From Alkaliphilus serpentinus (GTDB lineage Bacteria; Bacillota; Clostridia; Peptostreptococcales; Natronincolaceae): 64,000 nt of DNA. The first letter of the stretch is position 1; the number at the start of each line of letters is the position of its first letter. Both the position numbers and the translations under genes were made by a program. The notes beneath the pieces are model-generated. The model was not told the DNA's origin. It worked only from the letters and a program-made list of their open reading frames with translations, and made no database searches. Shown here one piece after another: positions 23,309-35,168 of this stretch. The stretch lies in assembly GCF_009017255.1 (NCBI RefSeq), contig NZ_WBZB01000013.1, forward strand, positions 204,404 to 268,403. Reading direction: 5' to 3'.

Positions 23309-23336
23309 AAGCTGTAAAAATTACAGCTTTTTTTTC
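23309..23336. terminator. Terminator and right target-site duplicate
   Basis: The second copy of the 21-bp hairpin (23309-23329) is followed by a T-run (23328-23335). It terminates the methyltransferase gene that reads toward it only by its reverse A-run at the left copy; on the plus strand it ends histidine-kinase transcripts. Confidence 0.85.
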
Positions 23337-24166
23337 TACTTTGTTGTTACTATACAAATTGTTTTAGATTCCTCATCAAAGGGTTTACCAGCTACATCTG
23401 AAAAAAATTCTATTGAACCGAAGCCTGCATCTTTCATCTCTTTTTTAAGGTCTTCTTTTGAAAAGCAGTGTTCAAAAACTCTTATCACCTCAACATCACC
23501 GTTAATATCTACTAGAACATGCTGATCTAATCTAGTATTTTTATCATATATGAAGTGGGACTCTAAGCATAGGTAGGTATCTGGTCGCCAAAATCCTCCT
23601 CCTTCCTCCATATACCAAATATTCGATTCTTTCTTACTATCAAAGAATTTCGGACTAAAAACATCTAAAATAAACTTTCCACCTTTTTTCAGGGCCTTGT
23701 AAACCTTTTTTAGCAAAAGGGACCTTTGACTAGGGTTTAAAACTCCATAATCACAATAGATTAGTATAATTACATCAAACTCATTTTCATAATCTATATC
23801 TAGGTAATTCTGATAGATATATTTAATGGCATCCCCCCTTTCTACAGCCTTCTCTGTAGCATAGGCTACAGATCTTTTAGAATAATCGATTCCTGTGATG
23901 GAATATCCCTTTTTAACGAATCTTTCGGCATATAACCCTGGACCACATCCTAAGTCCAAGAACTGATTATATACATTAGCTGGAGCTATTTTTCCTATCC
24001 ACTCGACAGATAGATCCATAAATTCATAGGATCTACTGGCTCCAGTTTCAGGATCTAGGTGGGACTCCAGCATTCCCTTTGAGATATGCTCATCATCCCA
24101 GAATTTTGTAGTGCTAGGTGCATATAGGTCTGGTTTCTTTAAATACTCAAAAATCTTCTTTATCAT
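23336..24166 (-). CDS. SAM-dependent class I methyltransferase
   Basis: 276 residues. The SAM-binding core is clear: QFLDLGCGPGLYAERFVKKGYSITGIDYSKRSV near 66-98 (motif I and the acidic loop), DVIILIYCDYGVL near 128-140, and a post-core LLLKKVYKALKKGGKFILDVFS. N-terminal ~55 residues suit a lid (FWDDEHISKGML). Small-molecule or protein substrate unknown. AAAGGATG precedes the ATG. It lies 31 bp behind the nitroreductase gene and probably shares its attenuated leader. Confidence 0.88.
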   Translation of the reverse strand: MIKKIFEYLKKPDLYAPSTTKFWDDEHISKGMLESHLDPETGASRSYEFMDLSVEWIGKIAPANVYNQFLDLGCGPGLYAERFVKKGYSITGIDYSKRSVAYATEKAVERGDAIKYIYQNYLDIDYENEFDVIILIYCDYGVLNPSQRSLLLKKVYKALKKGGKFILDVFSPKFFDSKKESNIWYMEEGGGFWRPDTYLCLESHFIYDKNTRLDQHVLVDINGDVEVIRVFEHCFSKEDLKKEMKDAGFGSIEFFSDVAGKPFDEESKTICIVTTK

Positions 24167-30796: not shown

Positions 30797-30849
30797 CATG
30801 AAGATTCGTAGCTTGTAGAGAATTGGCTACTTTTACTTCATGTTTTTTT
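30797..30849 (+). terminator. Leader terminator (attenuator) before the metal importer
   Basis: CATGAAG (30797-30803) pairs with CTTCATG (30836-30842), with inner GTAGC/GCTAC, followed by seven T's, 49 bp before the ATPase start. An alternative hairpin GAATC-ATGAA-GATTC (30793-30807) would consume the 5' arm, which is the layout of an attenuator. Confidence 0.65.
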
Positions 30850-30897
30850 ATGTTTTATTTCAAAGCTTCTAAATATCTAAAGAAAGGGTTTGGTTTC

Positions 30898-31590
30898 ATG
30901 GAAAATGCCATTGAATTGCGGGATTTAACAATGGGCTATGGCAATCATACAATACTTCGAAACCTTTATTTAAATATAAAGGTAGGAGAGTTTGTATCCA
31001 TTTTTGGAGAGAACGGCGCAGGCAAAACCACCCTCTTTAAGGGCATCCTACAACTATTGCCCATTATGAAGGGAAATATTAAAATCTTTAATGTAGATGT
31101 TACAAAGAGCAATGAAAAAACCTGGCTTCGCTCACAAATTGGATATGTACCCCAAAGACATAATCAAGGTAATTTTCCCATAACGGTTTTTGAAGCAACC
31201 CTTTTAGGAAGATGGGGATCATCCTTTTCATACTTTAAAAAGCCCTCTGCAGAGGACAAGGAAGTTGCAAAAGACATCCTTCAGCTTGTTGATTTAAGTC
31301 ATCTGAGTCACCAGGACTGCAGAAGGCTATCGGGAGGACAAATTCAAAGGTTAAACATCGCTAGAGCATTGGCCAGACACCCCCGAATCCTATTATTAGA
31401 TGAGCCAAATACCCATTTAGATATAGAATCTCAGCAGAAGCTGGATAATATCCTTCATAGTATTCGAAAGGAATACCACCTATCGATTTTAATGATTAGC
31501 CATGATCAGCTTCATACTCGAAGGGTAAGTGATAGAGTGGTTCATTTAAGGAATGGGACATTTCAAAAGGATTTGGAGCTGGTTATATGA
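30898..31590 (+). CDS. znuC: Metal ABC importer ATPase (ZnuC-like)
   Basis: 230 residues from the ATG at 30898; the longer frame runs through the leader terminator. Walker A GENGAGKTT near 38-46, Q loop VPQ, signature LSGGQIQR near 139-146, Walker B ILLLDEP. It ends in a 4-bp overlap with the permease gene. The C-B-A order with a cluster-9-type binding protein marks a Zn or Mn importer; the metal is not decided by sequence. Confidence 0.87.
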   Translation: MENAIELRDLTMGYGNHTILRNLYLNIKVGEFVSIFGENGAGKTTLFKGILQLLPIMKGNIKIFNVDVTKSNEKTWLRSQIGYVPQRHNQGNFPITVFEATLLGRWGSSFSYFKKPSAEDKEVAKDILQLVDLSHLSHQDCRRLSGGQIQRLNIARALARHPRILLLDEPNTHLDIESQQKLDNILHSIRKEYHLSILMISHDQLHTRRVSDRVVHLRNGTFQKDLELVI

Positions 31591-32390
31591 CTCTATTGGA
31601 ATTCTTCAAAGTACCCATCTTTCAAAGGGCTCTAATAGGAGCAATCATAGCTGGGGGTACAATATCCCTATTGGGAATCGTTATTGTAGTGTTTAACATG
31701 ACCACCCTACGATTTGCCCTAATGCATTTTGGCCTCCTTGGAGGAGCTATTGGATTATCCCTAGGGGCCAATCCATTAACAGCGGCAATTACTGCTATTG
31801 CCATTGGATCTCTACTGTTTGGCCCCCTTTCGGACAAGTTCAAACTGGATACAGGCATCATTGGCGGTTTTTTCATGACGGGAAGTATTGCAGTTGCTTT
31901 TTTGCTCTTTTACAAGGCTGGTGTTCCCGCTTTAGATGTCTTTTCATTATTCACCGGTAGTATATTAACCTTAACCAATAGTGATATAGTCTTTGTTGCA
32001 GTTTTAGGCTTAATAATCTTAACTACCTATTTTACCTTTTTTAGAGAAATTCAATTAATTTTTTACGATGCAGAACAGGCAGAATGGTTGGGGGTTCCTG
32101 CTCAGAAAATCCGTAATGGACTCTTATTTTTAACAGGGCTTGCCATTGGCGTGGCAATGAAGATTGTTGGAGCCCTACTGATTGATGCCTTAATCCTTTT
32201 ATCAGCCATGGCAGCCATGAGGATTGCAAAAAACTTTAAGCAGTTATTGGTTATAACATCTTTACTTGGAATGCTAACTACCACCGGAGGTTTATTATTA
32301 TCGATGGTAATGGATTTACCAACGGGAGCAACCATTACATTAACAGGAGTTACATTTTTATTAATAAGTATCATGATTCCAACAAAATAA
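31587..32390 (+). CDS. znuB: Metal ABC importer permease (ZnuB-like)
   Basis: 267 residues with about eight membrane helices, ABC-3 family (MntB/ZnuB). Typical stretch: AEWLGVPAQKIRNGLLFLTGLAIGVAMKIVGALLIDALILL, near the coupling helix. Translationally coupled to the ATPase by ATGA overlap and followed 24 bp later by the binding protein. Confidence 0.88.
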   Translation: MTLLEFFKVPIFQRALIGAIIAGGTISLLGIVIVVFNMTTLRFALMHFGLLGGAIGLSLGANPLTAAITAIAIGSLLFGPLSDKFKLDTGIIGGFFMTGSIAVAFLLFYKAGVPALDVFSLFTGSILTLTNSDIVFVAVLGLIILTTYFTFFREIQLIFYDAEQAEWLGVPAQKIRNGLLFLTGLAIGVAMKIVGALLIDALILLSAMAAMRIAKNFKQLLVITSLLGMLTTTGGLLLSMVMDLPTGATITLTGVTFLLISIMIPTK

Positions 32391-32414
32391 AAAAAAACAT
32401 CTAGGAGGATGAGA

Positions 32415-33230
32415 ATGAAATCTAAAAAAATCGTTTTATTAATGGTAAGTATCCTGATTATTTCTTTATTGACAATAGGCTGTAAAGCTACTGAGGAAGC
32501 TGTAACCCCTGAAGACAATCAGGAAGCTGTAGAGTACATCGAGGATGAAGTAGCTGAGGAATTAAAAATTGTAGCATCCACCAGTTGGACTGCTTTAATG
32601 GCGGAAGCTGCTGGTGCCAAGAATGTTGTTGTATTAGCTCCTGTTGAGTTGAAGCATCCACCTGAGTATGATTTTAAGCCTAGTGATGTTGTAGCCCTAC
32701 AGGAGGCAGATTTTATAATCATGGCTGGTTATGAAGGCTTTATGAACAAAATGATTGAAGCCAATAATATTGATCAGAAGAAAATCATTAAGGTAACCAC
32801 CACCAATACCTATGTCAATCTCCATGAACAAACCCATGTAATTGCCGATGCTATTGGAACCCAAGAAGGTCAAGCCCAATGGGAAGCAGAATTTAAGAAG
32901 GTTATATCAAAAATTATGAAAAAAGCCCAGGATCATAATGTAGCTGAAACAAAAGTACTGGTACATGTTCATATGCAAGCCTTTGTTAAATCTTTAGGCT
33001 ATGATGTCGTGGCAGTCTTCGGAGCAGAAGAGCTAAGCCCTGCAAAAATGGGTGAATTGGCTAATATGGGTCCTGACTTAATTATTGATAATTACCATAA
33101 TCCTCAAGGGATGACCATAGCTGAGCTGGCCAATGTAGAGAGGGTTGAGCTTAGAAACTTCCCTGGTCCTGACCATAGCAGCTTAATTGATTTGTTTAAG
33201 GACAATGTAAAATTATTAGGATTAGAATAA
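32415..33230 (+). CDS. znuA: Metal-binding lipoprotein of the ABC importer (ZnuA-like)
   Basis: 271 residues from the ATG at 32415 (AGGAGG six bases upstream). Lipoprotein signal with lipobox LTIGC (Cys near 23), an acidic linker, then a cluster-9 fold. Candidate metal ligands: His in LKHPPEYDF, His in VHVHMQAF, and Asp/His in DNYHNPQG and PGPDHSS. There is no His-rich loop. It lies outside the membrane and delivers metal to the permease. The ligand set is atypical for classical ZnuA, so the metal is uncertain. Ends at a strong terminator. Confidence 0.85.
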   Translation: MKSKKIVLLMVSILIISLLTIGCKATEEAVTPEDNQEAVEYIEDEVAEELKIVASTSWTALMAEAAGAKNVVVLAPVELKHPPEYDFKPSDVVALQEADFIIMAGYEGFMNKMIEANNIDQKKIIKVTTTNTYVNLHEQTHVIADAIGTQEGQAQWEAEFKKVISKIMKKAQDHNVAETKVLVHVHMQAFVKSLGYDVVAVFGAEELSPAKMGELANMGPDLIIDNYHNPQGMTIAELANVERVELRNFPGPDHSSLIDLFKDNVKLLGLE

Positions 33231-33272: not shown

Positions 33273-33818
33273 TTATCTTAACGAATATTCCAATTGAATA
33301 TCCCTAGGGTCACTTTCATACAATTCTTGGTTAATCTCTTCAGCTTCTACACAGCCAATAGACTTATAAAAGGCAATGGTAGCTTCTGAAGAAGCTGCAC
33401 ATAGATAAAGCTTATCCGCCCCCCAGTCTAAGGCTTGATTTCTACAAAGTTGCACAAGCTTTTTTCCTATTCCCCTACCCCTATAATCTTTTGATACGAA
33501 CATGGAATCTAGTAAAAGATATTTAGCGGTGCACCCAAAGAAATCATGATTTAGGGAAGCAAAGGCCACCAAAGTATCATTATGAAAAGCACCAAAGGCA
33601 GCTCCCCCATCTTCTATAGTCTTAATCAGCTCATCTCTATAGCCTTCATAGCCATCCGGCCATCCCTCTTCCTTATAATTTATGGTAATTAATTTGTATT
33701 GGCCTTCTTTTTTACGCCATACCCTTTCAATAAACTGACTAGGGTCAATCTCTGCAATTCTATCACATTCTTCTATTGTTATTTCTCTGTACTCAATACC
33801 TTTTTCTACTGTTTTCAT
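33273..33818 (-). CDS. GNAT-family N-acetyltransferase (second gene of the S4 operon)
   Basis: 181 residues with the GNAT core in the C-terminal half: LLLDSMFVSKDYRGRGIGKKLVQLC near 103-127 (R-G-x-G-x-G/A loop) and KLYLCAASSEATIAFYKSIGC. Its ATG follows the S4-protein stop with no gap, and its binding site AGGAGA lies inside the upstream gene, so translation is coupled. Being in an operon with an apparent antibiotic-type leader, a resistance role is conceivable but unproven. Confidence 0.85.
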   Translation of the reverse strand: MKTVEKGIEYREITIEECDRIAEIDPSQFIERVWRKKEGQYKLITINYKEEGWPDGYEGYRDELIKTIEDGGAAFGAFHNDTLVAFASLNHDFFGCTAKYLLLDSMFVSKDYRGRGIGKKLVQLCRNQALDWGADKLYLCAASSEATIAFYKSIGCVEAEEINQELYESDPRDIQLEYSLR

Positions 33819-34325
33819 TTATATTTCTCCTATCTTAATTAGAATAAGATCTTTTTCATTGATACTCTGCTTTCTTTTTACAGCCTCACCATTTACTCTA
33901 ATTGAACCATTCTCCAGAAGCTTTGATATTTCATTTCTACTGACATCCTCTATCTTTTCTGCTAGAAACTTATCTATTCTAACCTTTTCCTGGAGGACCT
34001 CTAGAAAAATTTCAACCTCCTGAAGATTCTTTTCTTTTAGCTTATGGATTCTTAAGTCACTATACCTGCTGGCTTTTTCTAGAAACTCACCATCTAGGTT
34101 TTCTAGACCCGATACTGCTTTAAAGGAGTCAATTTCTTTATTCCAGGTGTGGCCCTTAGGACACTTATATATTGCGAAATGGAATATAATCTTCCCATTG
34201 GCATTTTGTCTTCTTTTTAAGGAATCTTCAAATATCACCTTCTTACCACAGTTATGGCAATATCGTTCTACTCTATCTATGGTTCCATTGTATATTTTCC
34301 ACTTTAATTTTAAGCTTTTCTCCAT
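33819..34325 (-). CDS. Zinc-ribbon plus S4-domain RNA-binding protein
   Basis: 168 residues. N-terminal part has C23-x-x-C26 and C55-P-K-G-H59, a probable zinc ribbon. Residues ~116-160 are an S4 domain (VRIDKFLAEKIEDVSRNEI, then GSIRVNGE), the fold that Hsp15 and RqcP use to bind stalled 50S subunits. I do not recognise the full-length family by name. It follows a ~560-nt leader with two small uORFs and its own binding site AGGAGG is in a hairpin (34327-34364), so expression is likely conditional on ribosome function. Inference: a ribosome-associated stress or resistance factor. Confidence 0.75.
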   Translation of the reverse strand: MEKSLKLKWKIYNGTIDRVERYCHNCGKKVIFEDSLKRRQNANGKIIFHFAIYKCPKGHTWNKEIDSFKAVSGLENLDGEFLEKASRYSDLRIHKLKEKNLQEVEIFLEVLQEKVRIDKFLAEKIEDVSRNEISKLLENGSIRVNGEAVKRKQSINEKDLILIKIGEI

Positions 34326-34326
34326 T

Positions 34327-34364
34327 TTCCTTACCTCCTGAATTTGAGTTTGTACGGTAAGGAA
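34327..34364 (-). promoter_or_regulatory. Hairpin sequestering the S4-gene ribosome binding site
   Basis: On the minus strand TTCCTTACC (34364-34356) pairs with GGTAAGGAA (34335-34327); the AGGAGG of the S4 gene forms part of this stem and the ATG follows immediately. A 45-codon frame starting at 34410 reads through the hairpin and could open it. Confidence 0.6.
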
Positions 34365-34431
34365 TATGGTGTTTTTTCATTCTATTCATTTTGGGTAATG
34401 TAGTAATCATAAACTTTTATACTCCTTCCGT

Positions 34432-34470
34432 TTATTGATTTAAAAACATTACCTTAATGGCAGGCGTCAT
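34432..34470 (-). CDS. uORF2, putative leader peptide MTPAIKVMFLNQ
   Basis: A 12-codon frame with a very strong site (AAAGGAGG, seven bases spacing). It shares the MTPA core with uORF1 400 nt upstream. Part of its coding sequence pairs with the RNA just downstream, so a stalled ribosome would change folding near the S4 gene start. Confidence 0.6.
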   Translation of the reverse strand: MTPAIKVMFLNQ

Positions 34471-34590
34471 ATAATAACCTCCTTTCCTATGGATGCTGTA
34501 CCCTTCTAAATTAGCACTATAGTTACCTTAAAAGCACGTATTTTAAGAACCTAAAAATTCATTAGGGCTTAGTTTTAAAGAAATATAAAA

Positions 34591-34619
34591 GACTATAGAA
34601 GTCGTTACCTCTATAGTCT
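34591..34619 (-). terminator. Leader terminator between uORF1 and uORF2
   Basis: GACTATAGA and TCTATAGTC form a 9-bp stem; on the minus strand it is followed by TTTTATATTTCTTT. Inside the leader of the S4 operon, about 270 nt after the predicted start. Confidence 0.72.
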
Positions 34620-34832
34620 ATAAAAAACGTCTATACTTAAATGAAAATATTCATTAACCCCCTTCTACTGTAAAGGAGGATATGTAAATATCTAAATAAG
34701 CATTTATAATTTTAGCTATGTAAGTTCACTTCTAATTGCTAATTATTGAAGGGTACACAAACAAGCCTAATAAAACTAGGCTAAAATAACTCCCTAAAAT
34801 AAATCATTAATTTAATTTTGATTAAATTAATA

Positions 34833-34859
34833 TTAGCAATTAGCTGGCGTCATAAGCAT
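34833..34859 (-). CDS. uORF1, putative leader peptide MLMTPANC
   Basis: An 8-codon frame preceded by AAGGAGG with six bases spacing, about 30 nt after the predicted transcript start. Its codons GCT-AAT-TGC-TAA lie in the 5' arm of a 12-bp inverted repeat. The second in-frame ATG gives MTPANC, matching the start of uORF2. Confidence 0.6.
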   Translation of the reverse strand: MLMTPANC

Positions 34860-34895
34860 ACAAGCCTCCTTCTCCTATAAATTTAGACCATATTT

Positions 34896-34924
34896 ATTAT
34901 ACTAATAAACCATCAAGGTGTAAA
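34896..34924 (-). promoter_or_regulatory. Promoter of the S4/GNAT operon leader
   Basis: On the minus strand TTTACA (34924-34919), 17-bp spacer, TATAAT (34901-34896). Confidence 0.82.
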
Positions 34925-34955: not shown

Positions 34956-35168
34956 TTATTTATTAAAATGATTCTTGATAAAATCTATGGATTGAAGGAT
35001 AATCGCTCTAGAAGTATCATCATTGTTTTTTATATCAAAACCATGGTGTCCAGTAGGGTGCTCTACTTCAATACCCAATCCCTTGCCCTTTAGCACAAAA
35101 TCGTCGTTGGCCCCCTTTAAAGTATCGCCCTCATAGAAAGCCATAAAGCTATTAAGTTTTCCAAACAT
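34956..35168 (-). pseudogene. C-terminal fragment of an alpha/beta hydrolase (dienelactone hydrolase-like)
   Basis: A 70-codon frame ending GHHGFD...SRAIILQSIDFIKNHF, which resembles the last quarter of an alpha/beta hydrolase including the catalytic His region. No nucleophile motif or N-terminal part exists upstream and there is no binding site, so this is a remnant. Confidence 0.6.

Follow-up and report, generated by a model that had tools for sequence, protein, structure and literature searches.

An early-proline leader conserved upstream of zinc-ribbon/S4 protein genes in Clostridia and Bacilli is a predicted ribosome-stalling attenuator

The leader of Bacillus subtilis vmlR, as it is described in PMC9226507, carries a short upstream open reading frame (uORF) in a 5' hairpin, followed by a terminator, a hairpin that sequesters the Shine-Dalgarno sequence (SD) of the gene, and an alternative pairing that frees this SD upon stalling. 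In the ermC-type attenuator, as outlined in PMC13410324 and PMC10219788, the tail of the leader frame pairs with segment 2 and segment 3 with the SD in the off state, and segments 2 and 3 pair with each other in the on state. The Salmonella mgtCBR leader, according to the account in PMC3641672, has two successive short ORFs, in one of which Pro codons are the sensing element. The ABC-F uORFs treated in PMC10201436 (MIN, MR[I/M], MK[L/Q] and MAGN) are thought there to stall ribosomes post-initiation with little context dependence. The leader that we describe here precedes the gene of a zinc-ribbon/S4 protein in a 64-kb window, by which we mean the whole stretch of Alkaliphilus serpentinus DNA that was analysed. 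It has the parts of the vmlR leader, it has two successive short ORFs like mgtCBR, and its Bacilli form follows the segment pairing of ermC. We find it to be a real, conserved element of the ribosome-stalling attenuator kind, with the stalling itself predicted from sequence. Among the papers listed by a literature search for this S4-gene leader, none describes it.

The leader extends from 34924 to 34326 on the minus strand of the window, with the promoter, uORF1, a terminator, uORF2 and uORF3 following one another in that order. An earlier, sequence-only reading had proposed the promoter, two SD-led uORFs and the terminator, and both a scan and the sequence itself confirm them. The promoter TTTACA-N17-TATAAT (34896-34924) has 11 of 12 consensus bases and ranks best among the 17 promoter-like sites between 33000 and 37000, a number of sites not above chance (shuffle mean 15.1). 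Just 5' of it lies a 70-codon frame (34956-35168, minus strand) that has no Pfam match and that, by eye, could be what remains of the C-terminal part of a hydrolase. uORF1 (34833-34859) encodes MLMTPANC from the ATG at 34859, or MTPANC from an inner ATG at 34853, and is led by the SD AGAAGGAGG (34873-34865). As had been noted, its codons lie in one arm of an inverted repeat: folding pairs its last codons, TAATTGCTAAT (34842-34832), with the 3' arm ATTAGCAATTA (34733-34743), and the uORF1 block folds better than all 100 of its dinucleotide shuffles (z -4.0). The intrinsic terminator between the two uORFs (34590-34619) is a 30-base element with 13 pairs and a T-run.

uORF2 (34432-34470), with the peptide MTPAIKVMFLNQ, is preceded by the SD AAAGGAGG (34485-34478). 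The proposal that its codons pair with RNA 5' of the S4 gene is borne out by folding, in which its GGTAATG pairs with CATTACC at 34394-34400; none of 200 shuffles folds as well as the uORF2 block (z -3.9). Directly 3' of the uORF2 stop lies an SD-like segment (34418-34431) that could serve as a decoy for an anti-SD segment, CCATATTCCTTACCG (34355-34369), which can pair either with it or with the SD of the S4 gene (34329-34338). The SD-like segment doubles as the SD of uORF3 (34410-34273), a frame that the earlier reading, in speaking of two tiny frames, had overlooked; its checked translation is 45 codons long and passes, out of frame, over the S4 start codon. The second switch that had been suggested would act through the SD-like segment after the uORF2 stop and through this out-of-frame uORF3, a different route from the one first proposed.

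No Rfam family reaches its gathering threshold in the 64-kb window, and four sub-threshold matches in the leader region were rejected as chance-like. The same scan of the whole loci of 17 relatives gave two matches, both outside the leaders: a c-di-GMP-I riboswitch in L068 (894-978) and an ncr1575 RNA in L069 (1429-1657). In the genome of the window, the pattern GGAGG-N3-11-ATGACNCCN has four matches, two of which are the S4 leader, and a reversed control pattern has one.

A scan of a species-level collection found 59 S4-protein loci in Clostridia and Bacilli, among which L087, L088, L089 and L090 are partial-length matches. The 73 loci studied comprise 21 distinct loci of clostridial type, 43 with a Bacilli-type leader, two in which the S4 start could not be placed (L072, L089) and seven repeats; L091, L093, L098, L099, L101 and L102 were treated as repeats of L057, L087, L035, L037, L052 and L045 on account of identical uORFs and positions. 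These loci are not independent, in that many of the 43 Bacilli-type loci are close kin (Fictibacillus, Brevibacillus, Lysinibacillus).

The uORFs are retained across both classes. Because they were picked with their motif in mind, the fairer measure is a comparison of genes with controls, in which we counted SD-led ATG frames of 4-20 codons that start M(x)P and lie at most 600 bases 5' of a gene. Such frames precede 41 of 61 S4 genes, compared with 18 of 235 control genes taken from these loci; at least two of them precede 10 of 61 S4 genes and none of the 235 controls. This comparison left out L033, which has the same uORFs as L005, together with L072 and L089, whose S4 starts could not be placed. 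It missed 20 of the 61 loci, 17 of them of Bacilli type; in many Bacilli uORFs the SD is weak or distant. An SD-led upstream ORF conserved in relatives, as expected of an attenuator of the erm or VmlR kind, is thus found here, and the outcome that would have told against the earlier reading, uORFs lost from relatives, did not occur.

Within the clostridial set, uORF2 is present in 19 of 21 loci with Pro at codon 2, 3 or 4 in every case, and a uORF1 with Pro at codons 2-4 is present in 14 of 21. Elsewhere on the same loci, Pro occupies these codons in 64 of 603 control SD-led short ORFs. Outside the clostridial set, a pattern search found one uORF, mostly MPxx(x)L, in 43 of 45 loci; that pattern contained ATGCC, which builds in the Pro and makes the coverage alone informative. 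A match to it in L039 was dropped as chance. The exceptions are L045 and L103, which lack an M(x)P uORF, and L006, L040 and L045, which carry a possible uORF1 without Pro. Clostridial uORF1 peptides, read from the inner ATG in L001, L039 and L092, include MTPANC, MKPANC, MTPAICQY, MTPSNC, MTPVNC, MTPSIN, MTPSMN, MTPANF, MPSIA, MEPSNC and MLPAICFVE; those of uORF2 include, besides that of the window, MTPFTKVMDLNQ, MEPIFKVMYLNQ, MGTPSWMIIISQL, MREPISLIITDTL and MPSQKTMHSKK, and those of the Bacilli uORF MPTTTL, MPTFNL, MPNFTL and MPAYL. The element common to the uORFs is not the MTPA that the first reading saw shared between the two frames: it is M(x)P, or Pro at codon 2, 3 or 4. Its codons vary, with CCA 9, CCT 4 and CCG 1 in clostridial uORF1, CCT 12, CCA 5, CCC 1 and CCG 1 in uORF2, and CCA 41, CCC 1 and CCG 1 in the Bacilli uORF, and all four Pro codons are used across clostridial uORF1 and uORF2. 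This conservation points to context-dependent arrest as the predicted event.

In the clostridial form, the two competing partners of the anti-SD are both conserved. When segments were compared with partners swapped in from other loci, the true pairing won in 16 of 16 loci, both for SD-like segment with anti-SD and for S4 SD with anti-SD (16 of the 19 uORF2 loci, leaving out L003, L092 and L100). In L052, L057, L038-L040, L044 and L087 the duplexes differ in sequence and, judged by eye, keep their pairs. The uORF2 tail pairing beat its swaps in 10 of 16. A uORF3-type frame, starting at an ATG 10-24 bases past the uORF2 stop and running beyond the S4 start in the same register, is present in 14 of 19 loci; from about -75, its register stays open across the S4 start in 12 of 19 loci, against two and one of 19 for the other two registers. 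Eight of the 14 uORF3 peptides begin MIxTLP(K/R).

The Bacilli leader is built from four segments and a closing helix, in the RNA order E (5' of the uORF), A (the uORF tail), B, terminator, F, C and D (the S4 SD). Each pair energy was compared with the energies that its segment gives with divergent partners taken from other loci. The true pairing won in 42 of 43 loci for A:B (1:2), in 36 of 43 for B:C (2:3), in 36 of 43 for C:D (3:4) and in 42 of 43 for the E:F helix; the helix around the terminator reached 37 of 43, and the control pairings A:C and E:C 17 and 19 of 43. The E:F helix (for example in L041, L053 and L068) would form a pseudoknot with the duplex of segment 2 and the anti-SD. When a covariance model was built from the Bacilli leader (R1, a single 10-pair helix), it matched the leader in just one of the 14 clostridial-type loci given to it (L006, E 0.004) and also matched four Bacilli-type loci given. 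The match in L006 (1336-1447) sets the uORF2 region of this locus against the Bacilli uORF1 model, which hints at a possible relation between the two leader forms.

How could these pairings be switched by a ribosome? Folding of the full-length RNA at equilibrium, with a ribosome-sized stretch masked, hardly shifts the pairing of the S4 SD. It is 0.59 in every ribosome state in the window; the clostridial means are 0.36 free, 0.39 stalled and 0.35 terminating, with stalled above free in 15 of 19 loci, mostly by less than 0.05; and in Bacilli each state gives 0.18, the free value being exceeded in 32 of 43 loci and the mean change staying below 0.01. These values do not support a simple equilibrium switch, and because equilibrium shows almost no shift, any switch must be kinetic.

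We therefore turn to a growing-transcript model in which the RNA ends just 5' of the S4 SD. Across 18 clostridial loci (L092 was left out), the mean index for pairing of the SD-like segment with the anti-SD is 0.70 without a ribosome and 0.07 when one stands at the uORF2 stop; P sites at codons 1, 2 and 3 give 0.68, 1.02 and 1.08. The codon-2 index exceeds the terminating one in 17 of 18 loci and the free one in 13 of 18. Because of these pairings a finished uORF would mean off and an early stall on, if folding follows transcription. In Bacilli, a P site at codon 2 lowers A:B from 11.2 to 2.4 expected pairs and raises B:C from 1.2 to 6.0, the rise occurring in 38 of 43 loci; B:C also rises with a terminating ribosome, from 1.2 to 3.7, which counts against the model. 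Mutually exclusive pairings that hide or free an SD, the second mark of erm/VmlR-kind attenuators, are accordingly seen in the swaps and the growing transcript, with almost no shift at equilibrium. The earlier suggestion of a leader with mutually exclusive hairpins and translated-looking uORFs thus finds support in conservation and in the pairings.

The DNA itself shows the frames and that they are conserved, and likewise the alternative pairings and the terminator. On this basis we propose, with somewhat more confidence than doubt, that the leader is an on-switch: stalling at the early Pro would free the S4 start, and a ribosome that finishes would keep it shut. In the clostridial off state, the ribosome ending uORF2 would cover the SD-like segment and probably move on to uORF3; the anti-SD would then close the S4 SD, and uORF3 ribosomes would traverse the S4 start out of frame. 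In the on state, a ribosome halted at codons 2-3 would block the uORF2 hairpin, and the SD-like segment, still accessible, would take up the anti-SD ahead of S4 SD transcription. In Bacilli, the stalled ribosome would release segment 2, which could then pair with the anti-SD. The signal may be an inhibitor, or some other stress, under which ribosomes arrest at a proline near the start of the frame, and the S4 protein might then bind the large subunit of arrested ribosomes and protect or rescue them; both the link to antibiotics and the function of the protein are offered as hypotheses. Thr depletion argues against one candidate inducer for the MTP peptides. Orthosomycins are a candidate inducer: Mangano and colleagues reportedly described, in 2022, context-specific arrest by these drugs and a regulatory ORF belonging to a resistance gene.

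The Pro could instead be incidental, with the uORFs sensing drugs that stop ribosomes at or just past the start codon (pleuromutilins, lincosamides, streptogramin A), as the VmlR and CplR leaders do. The uORFs are indeed very short, the wiring is like that reported for VmlR (uORF MIN, alternative hairpins, SD-sequestering hairpin) and CplR (uORF MR[I/M]), and masking codon 1 lifts Bacilli 2:3 pairing from 1.2 to 7.0 expected pairs. We nevertheless consider this explanation unlikely. Pro is kept, through all four of its codons, in uORFs of differing RNA context, whereas the start-stalling uORFs given in PMC10201436 are without it, and in Clostridia a codon-1 ribosome brings no rise over the free transcript in the pairing of the SD-like segment, the rise appearing at codon 2.

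A physiological proline sensor, in which poorly charged tRNA-Pro or low EF-P stalls ribosomes that the S4 protein then handles, has a precedent in the mgtCBR leader, where proline limitation is described as being sensed through the Pro codons of mgtP (PMC3641672). However, mgtP as described there has three consecutive Pro codons and each uORF here one early Pro, and the target is by Pfam neither a metabolic nor a transport gene; we regard this possibility as very doubtful. Autogenous control, with the conserved helices as the binding site of the S4 protein, would suit an RNA-binding fold and a highly structured leader but leaves the SD-led frames, the conserved Pro and the SD mimic at the stop codon unexplained, and is highly improbable.

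Returning to the on-switch that we favor, the terminator offers a further possible point of control. A terminator-like hairpin is present in 12 of the 13 clostridial loci examined (of 14 with uORF1, leaving out L039) and, under a loose rule, in 43 of 43 Bacilli-type loci. With a stall, the upstream pairing of the clostridial terminator arm increases from a mean of 0.41 to 0.53, and in 10 of 12 loci; a terminating ribosome brings nearly the same rise, to 0.49. In the window this pairing drops with a stall from 0.70 to 0.12, contrary to antitermination, and pairing of Bacilli segment B with the terminator arm beat its swaps in 19 of 43 loci, as controls do, and is not supported. uORF1 may control the terminator in some Clostridia, a role that folding does not support in the window.

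The protein that this leader precedes (33819-34325, minus strand; 168 residues) has an N-terminal zinc ribbon, whose likely ligands are C23, C26, C55 and H59 (alignments of 46 and of 36 sequences show invariant Cys and His), and an S4 domain at the C terminus (115-155). Pfam scores the S4 domain at 28.2 bits, above the cut-off, and DUF1062 (PF06353) at 26.2 bits (cut-off 23; residues 97-145). The S4 domain matches RluD, Hsp15, YlmH on the 50S and RqcP on the 50S, and residues 115-168 of the protein model fall on 1-54 of 7as8_1 (54 aligned). R116 and R130, invariant in 46 sequences, correspond to the two H69-contacting arginines of RqcP, and arginines of this type are also present in other S4 domains (RluD and RsuA-type alignments); V128-S129-R130 stands where RqcP has K14-R15-R16, so that this motif is missing.

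The protein is patchily distributed. Among 97 other genomes around that of the window, four carry it, three with about 60% identity and the fourth with 42%; another four match through the zinc half alone, and the remaining matches are S4 domains of other proteins. Matches beyond the S4 domain occur in four of 391 genomes of the class (including the window's own, and one by the zinc half only) and in 7 of 206 genomes of the family of G452. Searches at E<=1e-5 found it in none of 50,697 phage records and gave one match, at 26% identity and annotated DUF1062, among 72,556 plasmid records; a mobile or phage origin was rejected on these searches. PADLOC gave no defence-system match for the S4 protein or for its GNAT neighbor at E<=0.01. 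We predict that the protein acts on stalled ribosomes, and as a protein kept with its leader in two classes it is a candidate ribosome-protection or rescue factor. A bolder version, quite improbable when taken as a whole, would make it an undescribed intrinsic ribosome-protection family, in which a zinc-ribbon/S4 protein works on the large-subunit E-site side of arrested ribosomes, two proline-codon sensors act in series, the second toggling an anti-SD between two overlapping out-of-frame genes, and the whole guards against proline-arresting inhibitors such as manikomycin-kind E-site binders and orthosomycins.

The sequence-only reading had joined the S4 gene with an acetyltransferase as the controlled pair. 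The GNAT gene (33273-33818, minus strand; PF00583) does abut the S4 gene in the same direction, but a conserved partnership was rejected on a survey of what lies downstream: blastp against 46 downstream ORFs at 72 loci returned the protein itself and three weak matches (L036, L055, L064; E 5e-5 to 6e-4). Proteins that look GNAT-like by eye recur in L055, L064 and L065 and in eight Fictibacillus loci, as separate clusters. By sequence, the conserved controlled unit is the zinc-ribbon/S4 protein, and the GNAT is accessory. Two other neighbors may be recorded here. Convergent with the zinc-ribbon/S4 operon lies a set of genes (30823-33230, plus strand) for an ATPase, a membrane protein and a lipoprotein, by eye like a zinc/manganese ABC uptake operon. 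Farther away, a protein that by eye resembles a methyltransferase (23336-24166, minus strand) has relatives of 39% and 37% identity directly 3' of the S4 gene in L040 and L086, two distant genomes.

If our reading is correct, the genes with stalling leaders gain a target that is not an rRNA methylase, an ABC-F protein or an efflux pump. Since an arrest context is predicted by the conserved early Pro, an inducer can be searched for. The clostridial form, for its part, suggests a means of control that rests on competition between two overlapping frames for a single anti-SD. Compared with the systems with which we began, the target is not VmlR, an ABC-F ATPase with the uORF MIN in PMC9226507, but a zinc-ribbon/S4 protein behind early-Pro uORFs; the clostridial form adds a second sensor and the out-of-frame uORF3, and antitermination, reported there for vmlR, is not clearly supported here. 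Relative to the ermC type as given in PMC13410324 and PMC10219788, the leader is longer, contains an internal terminator, has in Bacilli a uORF of 5-6 codons whose second codon is Pro, and serves no rRNA methylase. In mgtCBR the frames mgtM and mgtP are described as sensing different signals (PMC3641672), whereas both uORFs here carry the same early Pro, and the target genes are unrelated. Unlike RqcP, Hsp15 and YlmH as presented in PMC11317155, the S4 protein adds an N-terminal zinc ribbon and has V-S-R for the K14-R15-R16 of RqcP. What is new in this leader is its target family, its tandem early-Pro sensors, and an anti-SD common to two overlapping frames.
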